Virus record (IMG/VR): IMGVR_UViG_3300010391_000234
Location: 1-28,323 of that record
Length of the DNA: 28,323 bases
Source of the DNA: a virus
Strand: one strand, 5' to 3'
Position 1 is the first letter of the stretch. Every line of letters starts with the position of its first letter. This document shows positions 5,747 through 12,959 of the stretch, in pieces. A program made the position numbers and the translations under genes. Below the pieces are notes generated by a model. The model saw only the letters and a list, made by a program, of their open reading frames with translations, searched no databases and was not told the DNA's origin.

Positions 5747-5991
5747 AATCTCATCGCCTTTTCGGCGGTCTCGGGATAATCCCGCATGACCTGTTCCATT
5801 TCCTTTCCGGCTTCACGCTCAAGAATCACTTTAACTTCTTCAAGCATGGCAATAATCTCACGGATGGAGCCCGGGTCAACTTCGTCATGCAGGAAGTTGA
5901 TGACCATGATCCTTGCCGTTGATTTGCCTTCCTCTACAATGATGCGCAACGGGGAAACTTCAAAGATTTTTTGACTTTTAGAAAGGAACAT
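5743..5991 (-). CDS. Hypothetical protein (82 aa)
   Basis: The ATG at 5991 has an AGGAGGT SD five bases upstream, inside the end of the SSB-like gene, which it overlaps by 14 bases. The product starts MFLSKSQKIFEVSPLRIIVEEG. It looks like a small mixed fold: beta in the first half (KSTARIMVINFL) followed by a long acidic helix (REIIAMLEEVKVILERE). It sits between an SSB-like gene and an exonuclease, so a replication or recombination role is plausible by location only. Confidence 0.7.
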   Translation of the reverse strand: MFLSKSQKIFEVSPLRIIVEEGKSTARIMVINFLHDEVDPGSIREIIAMLEEVKVILEREAGKEMEQVMRDYPETAEKAMRF

Positions 5992-6580
5992 TTTCGACCT
6001 CCTCTTGGGTTAGCCCATGTTGTTCTTCTTCTTCGGGTGGATTCTGTTCTTCGGCCATATCGATCTTCTTCCTGATCCACTCAGGCAGCAATCTATAATC
6101 CTCCTGATACCCGCCGATTTCAAAGTACAGCGGTTTATTGACTGGCTCAGGAACCGTCATTCCCCGGGGGACCGTTCCTACTGACGCGATATTAGCAAAG
6201 ATCCGCCCTTTGTCGGCCTTGTGAATGATGTTTACCATGCAGGGCTTCCCAAGTAATTGCTTGAGATCGAAGCCCTCTTTTCGTTCTTCGTCGGTTATTG
6301 GCCGGCCCAACCATGAATCCAGAATCTTGCGAAGGTTTGCTTTCTCACCGAGGGCCAAAGTGTATGTTTCAGGGCGGGCAAATGGGCGACCATCTTTCAT
6401 GAGTTCAGCGGGAAACTCCCATGCAATAACTACTTGGTGCTGTTTTACGGGCAATCCCGTGGTTTCGTGAGTGAATTTAGTTACCTGAGTGCCACAGTCG
6501 GCTACCATATAGCATCGCGCTACCATGTTTCCTGCCGGAATAAGCTCCCGGTCTAGTGAATTGTCTTTTGCGAGTAACAT
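5978..6580 (-). CDS. NGO0469-family / SSB-like replication protein
   Basis: The ATG at 6580 is chosen because AAAGGAG precedes it by about eight bases; an upstream in-frame start at 6628 lies inside the zinc-protein gene. The 200-residue product resembles the phage proteins annotated as replication initiation NGO0469 family or single-stranded-DNA-binding-like: AGNMVARCYMVADCGTQ near 17, HQVVIAWEFP near 53, LGKPCMVNIIH near 119, and a PLYFEI strand near 155. It ends in an acidic tail with hydrophobic tip (EEEEQH ... ENVPF), the arrangement SSB proteins use for partner binding. It probably binds single-stranded DNA at replication forks and lies next to an exonuclease. The exact family is a judgement from motif memory. 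Confidence 0.7.
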   Translation of the reverse strand: MLLAKDNSLDRELIPAGNMVARCYMVADCGTQVTKFTHETTGLPVKQHQVVIAWEFPAELMKDGRPFARPETYTLALGEKANLRKILDSWLGRPITDEERKEGFDLKQLLGKPCMVNIIHKADKGRIFANIASVGTVPRGMTVPEPVNKPLYFEIGGYQEDYRLLPEWIRKKIDMAEEQNPPEEEEQHGLTQEEVENVPF

Positions 6581-6581
6581 T

Positions 6582-6749
6582 CTATTTTCTCCTTTTAGTA
6601 CGGCGATACCATTTTTGGGTTGATGCACTGGCGATCTTCGCGCATTTTCGGCAACGCGATTTTGTTTTTAGTTTTCGTTTTCCGCATGTGATACACAATC
6701 CTTGCGCCGCTTTCCCAATCTGCCATTTGATTTGCCGATTAACTTTCAT
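6582..6749 (-). CDS. Small basic zinc-finger protein (55 aa)
   Basis: The 55-codon frame starts MKVNRQIKWQIGKAA and contains two cysteine pairs, LCITCGKRK and CRKCAK, spaced as in a small zinc ribbon. A very basic end follows (WYRRTKRRK). Its last codons supply the AAGGAG SD of the SSB-like gene, and it lies directly downstream of an excellent promoter whose predicted start site is at or within a base or two of the ATG. It would therefore be read from an almost leaderless transcript. Proteins of this type bind nucleic acid; a more exact role cannot be given. Confidence 0.75.
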   Translation of the reverse strand: MKVNRQIKWQIGKAAQGLCITCGKRKLKTKSRCRKCAKIASASTQKWYRRTKRRK

Positions 6750-6915: not shown

Positions 6916-7796
6916 TTCTTATTCCTAGGAAAACTGCGCGACCTGTAGTCCGATCCCTGTAGTACTATGGCGTCTGCATTTTCAAATAATCGGCTTGTGA
7001 TTTTTTCGTGGTATCTTTTCTCGATAGCTTCTGAGTCCATATTCGTTGTGACGACAAGCGCGCCTTTGAGGTTTTCCAAAAAGATTTTGAATTGTTCGGG
7101 AAATAAATCTGAGTCCGTTATGATTCGTTCGCTGCCAAGATCGTCCAGGAAAACACACTGCGCCTCAATTGCGTAATCGTAATCTCTTTGTGCTAAATCT
7201 CTCGCGGCGAAATCGTGATACGACTGACATCGCCGGAACAAATCTGCAAGATCCGGCGCCTTCAGCCATTTGCAAGTTTGGAAGGCTTTCAGTTTGTAAA
7301 CGAGGATTCCCCGGGCAAGGTGAGTCTTTCCGAGTCCGGTTTTACCGCACAGGATCAGCTTTTTCTTTTCATCGGAAGCGGCAAAATTGATGCACTTACG
7401 TGCGGCCGAGAGTTGGACTTGTGAATCAAACGTATCGAAAGTCATTATCTGGCCTGTTACGGTCGTGTATTCTTCTGCGATTTTCTGAATCTTTTCTATG
7501 TGCTTCTTTTGTAATTTCGCCGGGCAAGGCTTCAATGAAGACAAGACAAGTACTTTCTGATCATAGGTGTGTGAATCATGCTCCATCGTGTAAGTCCTGG
7601 GCTTCGCTGATAGGATCAACCAATAACCTTTGTGACAATAGATCGTATCCGGCTCCATAGTTGAAACATCAGAGACGCCAGGCTTTCCGCATTCACAATT
7701 TGGTTCCTCGTATGCTTCCCCGCGTTCTTCTTCTATTTCCTTTTTTGTTGTTTCGTACAGGCCCTGAAAGTCGCGTGATGTTCCTATTTTTTGCAT
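6912..7796 (-). CDS. DnaC/IstB-type AAA+ helicase loader
   Basis: From the ATG at 7796 the product is 294 residues. It has an N-terminal cysteine-containing region (ECG near 36, YCHKG near 53, CPAK near 91) that may bind zinc. The AAA+ ATPase follows with Walker A GKTGLGKTH (151 to 159), Walker B CVFLDDLG (214 to 221), sensor-1 VVTTNM (248 to 253) and an arginine-finger region KITSRLFE. This is the pattern of DnaC and phage helicase-loader proteins, which deliver the replicative helicase to origin DNA. Another in-frame ATG at 7823 would add nine residues; the choice is uncertain. The gene overlaps the methyltransferase and follows the initiator, a typical replication cluster. No helicase gene is seen in the window, so the host helicase is the probable target. 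Confidence 0.85.
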   Translation of the reverse strand: MQKIGTSRDFQGLYETTKKEIEEERGEAYEEPNCECGKPGVSDVSTMEPDTIYCHKGYWLILSAKPRTYTMEHDSHTYDQKVLVLSSLKPCPAKLQKKHIEKIQKIAEEYTTVTGQIMTFDTFDSQVQLSAARKCINFAASDEKKKLILCGKTGLGKTHLARGILVYKLKAFQTCKWLKAPDLADLFRRCQSYHDFAARDLAQRDYDYAIEAQCVFLDDLGSERIITDSDLFPEQFKIFLENLKGALVVTTNMDSEAIEKRYHEKITSRLFENADAIVLQGSDYRSRSFPRNKK

Positions 7797-9205
7797 TGCA
7801 TTAACCCCATGCCCATTGGGCATTCATTATAAATCCTGCGTTCCGCCATCTTCACATATTCTGGATTCAATTCGATTCCGACAAACTGCCTTCCCGATTT
7901 CAACGCTACTATTCCGGTAGTACCTGATCCGCAAAACGGATCCAGGACAATTCCGCCATGCGGACAACCGGCAAAGATGCAAGGCTCTACTAGCTTTTCG
8001 GGGAATACTGCAAAGTGAGCCTCGGAGAAAGGCTGCGGGCCGATCCGCCACACCGAACGCTTGTTCCGCATTGCGCTGCATTGTTCTTCTTTTTCCATGT
8101 TGTCCCAGCGATCATTGAATCCGGCATGACGGCGGGAATGTCCGCGTTGCGGCTCTGCAATTGCGGCCGCGTCGTAAAAGTACTTTTTGGATTTTGTCAA
8201 CATGAAAATGTATTCATGTGATCGGGTGCAGCGATCTGTAACTGATTCCGGCATACATGCTGTCTTTGACCAGATGATGTCCTGGCGCAAATACCAGCCG
8301 GGCTCATACATTGATGGTGGTTCCGCAATCCAATCGGGAATGTCGATGGATTCAAGATGATTCAGTTTCGACAAGAAAGACACGATCCATGCGCTCTTCT
8401 CTCTATTCTCGTCTCCCTCAATTCCCTTATTCCTTCCTCTGGTATTACTGTTTATCTGCAAAAAATTCCAAGCTAAAAGCGCTTGCTTCTTTTTGCAAAC
8501 AAAATACGGATAAAGCTCAGCCAATAATTGCGCCTTCTCTCTCATTCCGTGCGCTATCCAGCGAAATGTATCTAGTTTCCCGAAGTGTCCGCGGCCATGC
8601 GTGTTGTGTTGCTGTCGTGATGTTTTCCAAATCCTGAAACATTCGTCCAACATTAAGGTATTACTATTTGTTACGGTTAAATGAATGCCGCGCCGAACTT
8701 GGCCGTTATCTTTTCTCTGGTGAGTGAAACCGCAAATACTGCCTTCACCGTCCATGATTGCAGCGAGCCATACTCTGTCGCGCTCTACAGCGATTCTGCC
8801 AATGTATCGCGGTGCCTGTAACGCTTTTGCTGTAATCCAGGGAATGCCAATCAGGTCTTTCTCTTTGAATCCTAAGGGAGGCTTTCTGGACTTTCCTTTA
8901 TGCCCTGATATTTCATGCTGCGACCTAGCTTCTGAAATGGAACCGCCACCCCACCCCCGGCCGCTGGCAGCATACGTGTCTCCCAAATTCAGCCATAACG
9001 TTCCATCCTTCCGCAGCACCCTCCGCACTTCCGCAAACACGACAACCATTTTGTCAACGTATTCTTGTGGTGTGGATTCGAGACCGAGTTGGCCCACAAT
9101 GCCGTAATCACGCAAGCCGAAATAGGGCGGGGAAGTCACGCAGCAATGAATAGATTCAGATTCCATGTTTTGCAGGATTGTGATGGCATCGCCGCACTGG
9201 ATCAA
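7784..9205 (-). CDS. Beta-class N4-cytosine/N6-adenine DNA methyltransferase with an internal LAGLIDADG-like domain
   Basis: The 473-residue product starts at a TTG that overlaps the stop of the initiator gene; AAGGA lies upstream. The methyltransferase has the beta-class order: catalytic TSPPY (24 to 28) first, then a GWYLRQDIIWSK segment (303 to 314), and the SAM-binding DPFCGSGTT (422 to 430) near the end. The expected run LIGIPW..ALQA-DGWYLRQD is interrupted by about 170 residues (132 to 302). That insert contains RVWLAAIMDGEGSI (145 to 158), matching the single LAGLIDADG motif of homing endonucleases. The insert has neither the first cysteine or serine nor the last His-Asn of inteins. 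Without it the protein would be about 300 residues, the usual length. The enzyme probably modifies phage DNA against host restriction. Confidence 0.85.
   Translation of the reverse strand: MIQCGDAITILQNMESESIHCCVTSPPYFGLRDYGIVGQLGLESTPQEYVDKMVVVFAEVRRVLRKDGTLWLNLGDTYAASGRGWGGGSISEARSQHEISGHKGKSRKPPLGFKEKDLIGIPWITAKALQAPRYIGRIAVERDRVWLAAIMDGEGSICGFTHQRKDNGQVRRGIHLTVTNSNTLMLDECFRIWKTSRQQHNTHGRGHFGKLDTFRWIAHGMREKAQLLAELYPYFVCKKKQALLAWNFLQINSNTRGRNKGIEGDENREKSAWIVSFLSKLNHLESIDIPDWIAEPPSMYEPGWYLRQDIIWSKTACMPESVTDRCTRSHEYIFMLTKSKKYFYDAAAIAEPQRGHSRRHAGFNDRWDNMEKEEQCSAMRNKRSVWRIGPQPFSEAHFAVFPEKLVEPCIFAGCPHGGIVLDPFCGSGTTGIVALKSGRQFVGIELNPEYVKMAERRIYNECPMGMGLMQCKK
8300..8812 (-). mobile_element. In-frame LAGLIDADG homing-endonuclease-like insertion within the methyltransferase
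   Basis: Residues of about 132 to 302 of the methyltransferase replace the short linker between ALQA and GWYLRQD. The segment has one LAGLIDADG-type helix (LAAIMDGEG), a basic strand region and a C-terminal helix bundle typical of single-motif enzymes that work as dimers. The boundaries are estimated from the normal methyltransferase sequence and could shift by several residues. It stays in frame with both halves, so the host protein can be made as one chain. I cannot tell whether it still cleaves DNA. Confidence 0.65.
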
Positions 9206-10050
9206 AATTTACCATCCTTGAAGTCAGACACGTGGTTGACTCCGATCTTTTGTTGTTTGCGTTCCGGGTCCGGGATCCGCTTCTCCCTGAACCATACAAA
9301 GAGCCAAGTGAGATTGGTAGGGGAGTATCCCCGGATCATCCACTCGGTAGCATATGGGCGCAGATCCTCTGCGGTAGACTCTCCGATGGCGGCTATAACT
9401 GAATCGTACAGGAGTTTTTTGGGGTAGGTGCTCATTACTTCGCGGTAGGTCTGGATCTGGGGGCTATCTGATCTGGGGTCTTTTTTTTTCGGATGATGCC
9501 CATTGCCACCCGAACGAAGTGAGGGTGTAAGTTCTTCTTCTTTCTTTCTTATATTCTTTCTTTCTTCTATTGTTGCCCTTGCTCTGCCCTCCGTCTGCCC
9601 TTGCTCTGCCCTTACTCTGCCCTCATTCAAACTTGCTTCGTTATTCCATGTGAGGCAAGTCACATATTCACATATATTTACGTGAGTATACGGTCTAGCG
9701 TCTACTCTGCCTATATTTAGCACGGTTATGTACCCTGAATCGATCAGATGTTGGACGGCTATTCTTACTTGTTTATAAGTAAGTCTTTTGATGTGATCTG
9801 AAAGGAGGCGGTAAGAAGTTATGGTTTCTCCGATTCCAATCGTCACATTTTCGTGGTGGTGGTGATCGTACCAGATAGCAGGCTTCCAATTCGCTTTAAT
9901 GATTAGATGAATCAGAACACGGAGAGCATTTGGGGGAAGGTGACTGATACGTTCTAGGTAGTCGCGGCGGAAAGGAATGAATCCGGCGTATGGGCCGTTT
10001 TCGTTTACTTGTGCAGGGTCAAATGAGGGTTCTTCGTAATCTTTTCCCAA
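9202..10050 (-). CDS. Winged-helix phage replication initiator (phage O / DnaD-like)
   Basis: The 282-residue product starts with TTG at 10050, preceded by GGAGA about 10 bases away. Residues 25 to 135 are a winged-helix DNA-binding domain in the style of phage replication-organizer proteins: PFRRDYLERISHLPPNALRV, then TSYRLLSDHIKRLTYKQV and a VQHLIDSGYITVL wing. A low-complexity linker rich in E, R and K follows. A C-terminal helical part (YPKKLLYDSVIAAIGE, then RGYSPTNLTWLFVWFREKR) resembles the partner-binding end of DnaD- or O-like proteins. It should bind the phage origin and recruit the helicase loader encoded two genes downstream. The 5' leader upstream is unusually structured (see the separate entry). 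Confidence 0.75.
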   Translation of the reverse strand: MGKDYEEPSFDPAQVNENGPYAGFIPFRRDYLERISHLPPNALRVLIHLIIKANWKPAIWYDHHHHENVTIGIGETITSYRLLSDHIKRLTYKQVRIAVQHLIDSGYITVLNIGRVDARPYTHVNICEYVTCLTWNNEASLNEGRVRAEQGQTEGRARATIEERKNIRKKEEELTPSLRSGGNGHHPKKKDPRSDSPQIQTYREVMSTYPKKLLYDSVIAAIGESTAEDLRPYATEWMIRGYSPTNLTWLFVWFREKRIPDPERKQQKIGVNHVSDFKDGKF

Positions 10051-10059
10051 CTACTATTC

Positions 10060-10170
10060 TCTCCTGCCCAACGGTCAAGCTTATAAGTGCTTGAGGGATA
10101 CGGACGGAGAATAAGCCGTTGGGACAAGCTTGCCTTTCGGGAGCTACCCGATCTGCAATCCGATCCCTCG
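10060..10170 (-). ncRNA. Pseudoknotted leader RNA upstream of the replication initiator
   Basis: Four helices are visible. Stem A pairs 10067..10074 (CCCAACGG) with 10116..10123 (CCGTTGGG). Hairpin D pairs 10075..10080 (TCAAGC) with 10089..10094 (GCTTGA) around an 8-base loop. Hairpin C pairs 10137..10141 (TCGGG) with 10147..10151 (CCCGA). Stem B pairs 10095..10103 (GGGATaCGG, one bulged base) with 10160..10167 (CCGATCCC) and crosses stem A, making a pseudoknot. Stem B can be longer by two pairs if hairpin D opens. In the minus-strand RNA the final strand of A ends 2 to 3 bases before the GGAG of the initiator gene, as in translational riboswitches. No known family is recognised, and a plus-strand RNA remains possible because every pair is Watson-Crick. 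Confidence 0.5.
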
Positions 10171-10180
10171 TTACGAAAAT

Positions 10181-10204
10181 AGCCTACAATATTTTTAGGC
10201 TTTT
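10181..10204 (+). terminator. Weak bidirectional hairpin with U-tract
   Basis: AGCCTA (10181..10186) and TAGGCT (10196..10201) can pair around a 9-base A/T loop, followed by TTTTG on the plus strand and preceded by AAAAT. It resembles a weak intrinsic terminator in either direction. If the pseudoknot RNA is made from the plus strand, this would end it. It overlaps the minus-strand -10 candidate, so both roles cannot be assumed. Confidence 0.3.
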
Positions 10205-10209
10205 GTCAA
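10181..10209 (-). promoter_or_regulatory. Candidate promoter of the replication operon
   Basis: Minus-strand TTGACA (10209..10204) is followed after 17 bases by TAGGCT (10186..10181). The -35 is perfect; the -10 has three matches of six. Start would be near 10174, giving a leader of about 124 bases that contains the pseudoknot. The weak -10 suggests a need for an activator, or that this is instead part of the terminator-like hairpin at the same place. Confidence 0.4.
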
Positions 10210-10232
10210 TAGCGGTCTTTTCGTGTTAGAAT
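10203..10232 (+). promoter_or_regulatory. Promoter of the plus-strand nuclease island
   Basis: TTGTCA (10203..10208) is followed after 18 bases by TAGAAT (10227..10232), a good sigma-70 pair. Transcription would start near 10239, and the SD GGAGG at 10256..10260 serves the ATG at 10267 or the first at 10264. The -35 shares five bases with the oppositely directed -35 of the replication operon. Confidence 0.6.
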
Positions 10233-10263
10233 GTTAACCAAAAATGAATGATCTTGGAGGTTT

Positions 10264-10488
10264 TTGATGACGTTAATTGATGATGGTACTGAAAATTGGA
10301 AACAATTTTCCGATACGGTAACTATTCGTGAATGGGCGAAGTATTCAGGACGCGATATGTATCGTGGGGAATTTAGCCCCTGGCGCGGGTTCCGGTCTTT
10401 TGGCGTTACTGCCCCTACGGATCTTTTGGAATTGTTCGAGCAAAAACTGCTTGAAATGAAGCAATCAGCCATCGAAGCTTTCAAATGA
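10264..10488 (+). CDS. Hypothetical protein (74 aa)
   Basis: The product starts MTLIDDGTENWKQFSDTVT after a GGAGG SD and a convincing promoter. It contains TIREWAKYSGRDMYRGEF and ends with an amphipathic helix (LLELFEQKLLEMKQSAIEAF). The stop overlaps the start of the nuclease gene as ATGA, so the two form a two-gene operon on the strand opposite to all other early genes. The segment TIREWAKYSG might be a small DNA-binding helix, but no family is recognised. It could be a regulator or a partner of the nuclease. Confidence 0.7.
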   Translation: MMTLIDDGTENWKQFSDTVTIREWAKYSGRDMYRGEFSPWRGFRSFGVTAPTDLLELFEQKLLEMKQSAIEAFK

Positions 10489-10880
10489 TCCGTCTCCCAT
10501 TCGCTCCCGCCGGCGCGGTTCAGACCAGTGGCAAGCGCAAAAAAGTTGCCGGTCTTTTGTCGTTAGATAAAAAGCGGCTGTTTTGGATAGCCTGGCAGCG
10601 TTTCGCCCCAGATTTGCCCCCTCCGATTCCCGAATACGAGTTTCACCCAGAGCGCAAGTGGAAATTTGACTACGCCTGGGAACTGCAAAAAGTCGCTGTG
10701 GAAATCGAGGGTGGGATCTGGATACGGAAGGGCGCGCACAACACGGGGATTGCAATTGTGCGGGATATCGAGAAATACAATCAAGCCACTGTCCGGGGCT
10801 GGCGTCTTTTACGCTTTACCCCGGATCAGCTTACGAAAGATCCTACTGCGTGCGTTGATTTAGTTCGCGGTCTTGTCTGA
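10485..10880 (+). CDS. Vsr/VRR-like PD-(D/E)XK endonuclease
   Basis: The 131-residue product has the short nuclease core typical of Vsr-like or phage PD-(D/E)XK endonucleases: YEFHPERKWKFDYAW (residues 50 to 64), where the FD provides the catalytic aspartate, then VAVEIEGG (70 to 77) with E-x-E/G, then a helix DIEKYNQATVRGW and a strand RLLRFT. The first 40 residues are basic and probably contact DNA. Small enzymes of this group repair mismatches or resolve branched DNA; the phage role is likely recombination or replication-fork processing. It is separated from the converging gene at 10921 by 40 bases containing a GC-rich stem-loop. Confidence 0.75.
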   Translation: MIRLPFAPAGAVQTSGKRKKVAGLLSLDKKRLFWIAWQRFAPDLPPPIPEYEFHPERKWKFDYAWELQKVAVEIEGGIWIRKGAHNTGIAIVRDIEKYNQATVRGWRLLRFTPDQLTKDPTACVDLVRGLV

Positions 10881-11680: not shown

Positions 11681-12085
11681 TCATTTGGCGTCAGGCAGGG
11701 AATCAATAAATTTTTCCGTGGCATCGGCTTCCTCAAGGTACTCGTCTTCATCGACATCCTCAAGCATTGCTGTCACAATCTCATGGTAATCGACTTCGGA
11801 AAGTGCGAGGAAGCCGATGCCAGCGTTCATCATATCGCGGAAAAAGCACGCGTCCGGAATTCCGAGTTGATATGATTCTTTCTCAATTTGATCCTTGAGA
11901 ATATCGCGCAGCGCGAAAGCTGCATTCTCTTTGCGGGTGAAATTGCTGTCAGCTTCGGCATTATTGTACGCTTCCTGTGCTTTTTCCTGCCAGTAGCTGC
12001 TAAAGCCTTCGTCGTTGTCAATCCAAAGCTTTAGATTCCACGTTTCGTAATTCGACCGTCCGTTGTATGTTTTGTCTTCGCTCAT
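11681..12085 (-). CDS. DUF7249-like phage protein
   Basis: The 134-residue product has the SNYETWNLKLWIDNDEG signature near its N-terminus that marks a widespread phage family (annotated DUF7249 in recent sets). Downstream are an acidic helical part and ALSEVDYHEIVTAMLED, also typical. The family has no experimentally fixed role that I know of; it is common in early regions and is often near antirestriction or other host-takeover genes, as it is here. A GGGAGG SD precedes the ATG at 12085. Confidence 0.75.
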   Translation of the reverse strand: MSEDKTYNGRSNYETWNLKLWIDNDEGFSSYWQEKAQEAYNNAEADSNFTRKENAAFALRDILKDQIEKESYQLGIPDACFFRDMMNAGIGFLALSEVDYHEIVTAMLEDVDEDEYLEEADATEKFIDSLPDAK

Positions 12086-12591: not shown

Positions 12592-12959
12592 AGCGCCTCT
12601 GTTTGCGAAATGTCAAAGACGGTAGTTAAGCCGAACCCGCCGGTTGATTCTGTTTCCGTGTTTCCGTCCTCATCTTTGGTTTTTGATCCGAACGGAAACC
12701 AGATTGTAAAACCATGCTCGCCAGCTCGTACCGTTCGGCCGGCGGACTTCCATTGATTGAAGCCTGCAACGACGGTAGGGTTAACAGCGCCCTGGAAGCA
12801 GAGTAACATGGTGTTAACCATGCTATACTGATGTCCTTCCGGGTTGCATGGCGCAACGAGGGAATCAGATAGCGTCTTTCGTTCTTCATCGGACAGAGAC
12901 GCTATTTTTTTGATCATGCCTTTGATCGCTTCTCTTTTTGCTTTGTGTTTTTCGGTCAT
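12588..12959 (-). CDS. ArdC N-terminal-domain-like antirestriction protein
   Basis: The ATG at 12959 has GAGGATAAAA in front of it; the frame further upstream is a shadow of the membrane peptide. Residues 46 to 90 (SMVNTMLLCFQGAVNPTVV, then NQWKSAGRTVRAGEHGFTIW) match the N-terminal single-stranded-DNA-binding domain of ArdC. In plasmids this domain is joined to a metallopeptidase and helps DNA evade restriction on entry. Here the chain is 123 residues and ends with FDISQTEAL, right after the N-domain, so the peptidase part is absent. Stand-alone N-domains may simply bind single-stranded DNA. It sits in a cluster of small early genes where antirestriction is expected. Confidence 0.75.
   Translation of the reverse strand: MTEKHKAKREAIKGMIKKIASLSDEERKTLSDSLVAPCNPEGHQYSMVNTMLLCFQGAVNPTVVAGFNQWKSAGRTVRAGEHGFTIWFPFGSKTKDEDGNTETESTGGFGLTTVFDISQTEAL

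Follow-up and report, generated by a model that had tools for sequence, protein, structure and literature searches.

A phage replication initiator gene is preceded by a predicted mRNA leader with two mutually exclusive folds: a candidate translational timing element

The predicted structured 5' leader of a phage replication initiator mRNA (positions 10051..10174, minus strand, ~124 nt) holds complementary strands for two alternative folds. One is a pseudoknot, which would leave the ribosome site open, and the other is a long nested hairpin, which would close both the ribosome site and the start codon. We tentatively favor the reading that this is a bistable leader that times translation in the manner of MS2 or repZ. 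We give this reading slightly less than an even chance, and since it is drawn from one sequence we present the leader as a plausible candidate. The main rival, itself a serious possibility, is that structure in the leader arose by chance or from unrelated causes, such as mRNA stability or weak basal translation, and that the pseudoknot is irrelevant. The stretch analyzed here (the window, 28,323 bases) is a lone virus record in which the replication module runs leftward on the minus strand, while the terminase, portal and head genes run rightward.

The initiator gene and its ribosome site

The gene that follows the leader (9202..10050, minus strand, TTG start at 10050) encodes a DnaD-like replication initiator of 282 amino acids. 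Its product matches PHROG_2514, 'DnaD-like helicase loader' (E 2.5e-5), and this match bears out the claim of an earlier note on this DNA that a structured element precedes a replication gene. Searches of Pfam and NCBIfam with the initiator protein gave no match. The TTG at 10050 is plausibly the sole start of the gene, because an in-frame TAG immediately precedes it and the next 48 codons contain no ATG, GTG or TTG; among the relatives of the initiator, the conserved region starts near residue 22. A Shine-Dalgarno (SD) sequence, AGGAG (10061..10065, minus strand), is located 10 nt upstream of the TTG.

With the initiator gene immediately downstream and its ribosome site at the end of the leader, translation of the initiator might be repressed or opened by a phage protein, the initiator itself or another, that binds the pseudoknot or the hairpin. 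Autoregulatory translation control has precedents among phage and ribosomal-protein genes, as in T4 gp32 and S4 of the alpha operon. However, family searches (PHROG, Pfam and NCBIfam) for an RNA-binding domain in the initiator found none, and we consider autoregulation unlikely.

Promoters and the predicted transcript

A promoter scan of 10150-10300 on the minus strand returned, as its best match, TTGACA (10209-10204) and TAGGCT (10186-10181) separated by a 17-nt spacer, with a score of 9/12. This candidate promoter (10181..10209) was absent from a stricter scan because its -10 box is weak, with 3/6 consensus bases; the count of promoter-like sites that the stricter scan found in the region was near chance. 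From the candidate promoter we infer transcription of the leader from ~10174. The predicted start is five bases ahead of stem B, the first stem, which would make the element an initiator mRNA leader; it is best read as such, and as part of the minus transcript only. A divergent candidate promoter on the plus strand (10203..10232; TTGTCA, 18-nt spacer, TAGAAT with a TG extension, 10/12) faces away from the element. Its -35 box and that of the minus promoter overlap at 10203-10209, which places the element downstream of one promoter and not, as had been claimed, between divergent promoters.

An inverted repeat, GAAAATAGCCTACAA and TTTTAGGCTTTTGTC (10175..10207, 80% complementary, 3-nt gap), spans the minus promoter from its -35 to its -10 box and is possibly an operator. 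This operator-like dyad over the minus promoter, together with overlapping divergent -35 boxes that suggest a shared control point, would be in line with the view that inverted repeats here act as DNA, either as an operator or as part of a replication origin. Against that view, the loops of the leader helices are long and of unequal size and their strands have alternative partners, which sets them apart from operator dyads, and a better origin candidate lies within the initiator gene, where the repeats at 9574-9623 stand beside 9538-9571. A role as a DNA element is in our judgment quite improbable. The repeats inside the initiator gene are 4.5 copies of an 11-bp direct repeat, GGGCAGAGCAA (minus strand), and the adjoining stretch at 9538-9571 is A/G-rich; as a whole, 9538-9623 looks like a lambda-O-type origin, with iterons and an unwinding element.

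Two competing folds of the leader

In the minus-strand RNA, stem A (CCCAACGG, 10123-10116, with CCGTTGGG, 10074-10067; span 10067..10123) consists of 8 perfect pairs and is the strongest uninterrupted helix of the leader. Its 3' strand stops 2 nt (C, A) short of the GGAG at 10064-10061. Stem B, the second strongest (GAGGGATCGG, 10169-10160, with CCGTATCCCTC, 10103-10093, read as CCG-T-ATCCCTC; span 10093..10169), has 10 bp, made up of a 7-pair core (GAGGGAT 10169-10163 / ATCCCTC 10099-10093) and of CGG/CCG past one bulged U. Stem B crosses stem A. Both helices are as the earlier note had described them, with A at 8 pairs ending 2 to 3 bases from the GGAG and B at 8 to 10 pairs with one bulge, whereas its two hairpins had to be corrected. 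Hairpin D, given as 6 pairs, has 5 (TCGGG 10151-10147 / CCCGA 10141-10137), with a 4-bp stem below them (TTGC 10158-10155 / GCAA 10133-10130; 10130..10158 overall); together with this lower stem, it fits both alternative folds. Hairpin C (TCAAGC 10094-10089 / GCTTGA 10080-10075; 10075..10094) overlaps stem B through its outer pairs. The 5 pairs attributed to it (CAAGC 10093-10089 / GCTTG 10080-10076) are present, but only 4 of them coexist with stem B, because C10093 is also used there.

The RNA had been called a pseudoknot. The crossing helices that this implies are present and abut the SD, but they are not the predicted stable fold: among nested folds, the RNAfold minimum of the leader is a long hairpin at -50.9 kcal/mol. 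This nested hairpin (10041..10128, minus strand) covers the SD and the TTG start and carries hairpin C at its apex. It comprises a start-codon helix (TCCCAAC 10124-10118 / GTTGGGA 10051-10045), an inner helix (GCT 10116-10114 / AGT 10055-10053), an SD helix that covers most of the SD (TTCTCC 10111-10106 / GGAGAG 10064-10059) and an upper helix (GTCCG 10105-10101 / TGGGC 10070-10066). The alternative is possible because GTTGGG occurs twice, at 10072-10067 and at 10051-10046, and the two copies are rivals for the CCCAAC strand at 10123-10118. The 5' strand of stem A is needed in both folds, and pseudoknot and nested hairpin are therefore mutually exclusive. The earlier reading lacked the competing hairpin; with the hairpin included, the predicted picture becomes one of two mutually exclusive folds of a single leader.

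Two TTG frames also begin within the leader on the minus strand. The first (10158-10144) has 4 codons, with an SD-like GAGG upstream. The second (10127-10005) has 40 codons, with an SD-like AAGG upstream, and overlaps the initiator start; were it translated, the closing hairpin would melt.

Leader structure compared with chance

The folding energy of the leader has a z of -3.4 to -3.9. Among 2000 dinucleotide shuffles of it, 3 attained this energy, as did 5 of 2000 in a second set, in which shuffling was confined to the sequence ahead of the SD. The start codon was occluded equally completely in 24 of 2000 shuffles. When 563 windows on the gene strand were ranked by folding energy, the leader had the third lowest value, and it was the only one of the top three located outside annotated-size reading frames. 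This overall stability and rank argue against a leader structured by chance or for unrelated causes, as does the placement of stem A, which ends at the SD and whose 5' strand also fits the start codon.

Other comparisons favor the chance explanation. Two coding windows in the same scan, 11686-11825 and 12636-12775, are more structured than the leader. Crossing helices that match A plus B in strength appeared in 78 of 2000 dinucleotide shuffles of the leader and in 47 of 2000 in which the SD and start were held fixed, that is, in 2-4% of shuffles; judged on strength alone, such a pair is only slightly out of the ordinary, and stronger ones occur on the plus strand in several other parts of the window. 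Occlusion of the SD is by itself unremarkable, since 533 of 2000 shuffles reached the same level and the prediction gives greater occlusion for three other starts of the phage.

A stable fold and a strong crossing pair were found jointly in 1 of 2000 leader shuffles and in 0 of 2000 with the SD and start fixed, although this combination was chosen post hoc.

Order of folding and proposed mechanism

RNAfold is blind to pseudoknots, so the comparison of pseudoknot and hairpin relies on an energy sum made by hand. The helices of the pseudoknot sum to -41.5 with a 9.6 kcal penalty, or to ~-38 after ~3 for loops, as a rough hand estimate. For a growing transcript whose 3' end lies at 10064, the nested minimum was -35.5 kcal/mol, falling to -42.3 at 10060, -46.3 at 10048 and -50.9 at 10040. 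In addition, nascent prefixes with 3' ends from 10091 to 10071 contain stem B in their minimum-energy fold. By this rough estimate, the pseudoknot would be favored until the SD is transcribed, and the hairpin would win once the start codon is out. The predicted energies of the growing transcript lend support either to a short translation window or to a switch set by a factor.

We propose that the 5' leader of the initiator mRNA could switch translation between two states. With RNA polymerase not yet past the leader, the pseudoknot would be the first fold to form in the cell, with CCCAACGG paired to CCGTTGGG upstream of the SD and the ribosome site open. After the start region has emerged, the long hairpin would be the more stable state; the CCCAAC strand of CCCAACGG would then pair with the GTTGGG over the start codon, and ribosome site and start would be closed. 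A newly made transcript would be open to translation only briefly before it is shut. Alternatively, which fold persists might be decided by a factor, either a protein or a ribosome engaged on a short frame upstream. If the proposal is true, a DNA phage would set the onset of replication through translation of its initiator, by strand exchange in the leader, and a plasmid-like and MS2-like trick would operate in a tailed phage. It is doubtful that the leader represents a new class of phage translational timer, in which pseudoknot and start-codon hairpin alternate during transcription without antisense RNA or ligand.

Comparison with known systems

In repZ/repA leaders, a competing structure hides the ribosome site, and the stem that hides it is opened by translation of a leader peptide. 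The phage leader is similar in that its predicted nested minimum hides the SD and the start codon; its upstream frames, in which such a peptide might be encoded, are TTG frames only, the longest of 40 codons. In the published account (PMC8383071), translation of the repZ initiator of IncI-alpha plasmids depends on a pseudoknot ahead of the ribosome site and is blocked by an antisense RNA, and the pseudoknot of repZ/repA leaders (IncI-alpha, IncB, IncL/M) ends just upstream of the ribosome site. A comparable arrangement may exist in the phage, also in an initiator leader, where the 3' strand of stem A in the potential pseudoknot lies 2 nt before the GGAG. Whereas antisense RNA decides in the plasmids, the plus strand of 9000-10202 holds weak promoter matches only, with no promoter-like site in the stricter scan and weaker matches of 8-9/12. 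The initiators also differ in type, the phage protein being DnaD-like (PHROG_2514) and not RepZ/RepA, and on this point the phage leader would fall outside the repZ group.

In the 5' leader of MS2, translation is made possible by a transient structure that precedes the final fold (PMC6733600). The phage leader would resemble it if its site is open to translation in a transient fold and is later closed by a more stable one. MS2 is an RNA phage with a cloverleaf as its final fold, whereas the leader described here belongs to the mRNA of a DNA phage and would have a pseudoknot as its transient fold.

The earlier note had likened the layout to that of translational riboswitches. In the direct-occlusion riboswitches of H-type (SAM-II, preQ1-I and preQ1-II), the ribosome-binding site (RBS) is in the 3' helix or borders it; preQ1-II has a stem-loop within a pseudoknot loop, and some preQ1-I switches act on the RBS at a distance (PMC10907184). 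The leader resembles this group in its H-type topology, which abuts the ribosome site, and in having a hairpin in two loops. A ligand-sensing translational riboswitch of an H-type class is nevertheless highly improbable here. The 3' strand of stem A stops 2 nt short of the RBS, and closure would come from a different hairpin, where another helix hides the SD. The location of the SD outside stem A weakens the riboswitch reading rather than defeating it, because some preQ1-I switches act at a distance. Nor was there a sign of a ligand: no biosynthetic or transport gene that would hint at one was identified downstream, and Rfam gave no match above chance. At gathering score there was none, and at E up to 10 there were two chance-level matches, which agrees with the earlier statement that no known family fits.

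Crossing helices and a hairpin at the place of P4 are also reminiscent of HDV-like ribozymes, which require C as the first base of J4/2, and of the theta ribozymes of phages, which are often tRNA-associated (PMC10879173). Unlike in these ribozymes, the 8-bp stem A comes without a P3, the P1-like strand is not followed by a P1.1 partner, and J4/2 opens with A on the minus strand (after GCTTG) and with T on the plus strand (after CCCGA). An HDV-type ribozyme is ruled out by the absence of P3, P1.1 and the catalytic C from the sequence; for these three features, the catalytic elements are missing as the earlier note had stated.

Search for relatives

Searches of phages, plasmids, IMG/VR and GTDB genomes found no homologous leader, and the phage appears to be without known close relatives. 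Searches of phages and plasmids with the leader DNA turned up nothing beyond short matches of 22-42 nt, at chance level, and a pattern search with the 14-mer CCGTTGGGCAGGAG gave chance matches only. A gapped-stem pattern, for which we estimated ~1 match by chance, had a single match; it was rejected, as it is located inside an unrelated 141-aa frame and has no first strand of stem B.

The initiator protein had no relative among phages and two distant relatives in IMG/VR. An initiator profile recovered 41 relatives from IMG/VR, all at <=35% identity, and by a crude measure most of these have little or no gap to the upstream frame. Among GTDB genomes, searches with the initiator and the terminase revealed no homologous leader, and the initiator had no relative there. 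Searches of IMG/VR with the terminase, the DnaC-like loader and the major head protein yielded no relative. A small gene on the plus strand, 10485-10880 (PHROG_503, unknown function), has 21 relatives in IMG/VR at 37-55% identity. The loci of these relatives are otherwise unlike this phage, several have a methyltransferase-like match nearby, and the initiator was absent from all 21 within ~3 kb on each side.

Other features of the record

A second replication-initiation gene may be present beside the DnaD-like one, because 5978-6628 (minus strand) strongly matches NCBIfam NF046043, phage replication initiation protein, NGO0469 family (E 4.8e-52). The gene at 7784-9205 (minus strand) encodes an N6/N4 DNA methyltransferase with an in-frame endonuclease-like domain at about residues 142-261. 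This insert corresponds to PHROG_5046, named HNH endonuclease, and contains the sequence LAAIMDGEG, which looks LAGLIDADG-like. Finally, a perfect 16-bp inverted repeat, TGGCATCGGCTTCCTC (11719-11734 / 11807-11822, 72-nt gap), sits in the reading frame 11681-12085 (PHROG_871), in the most structured window of the record.
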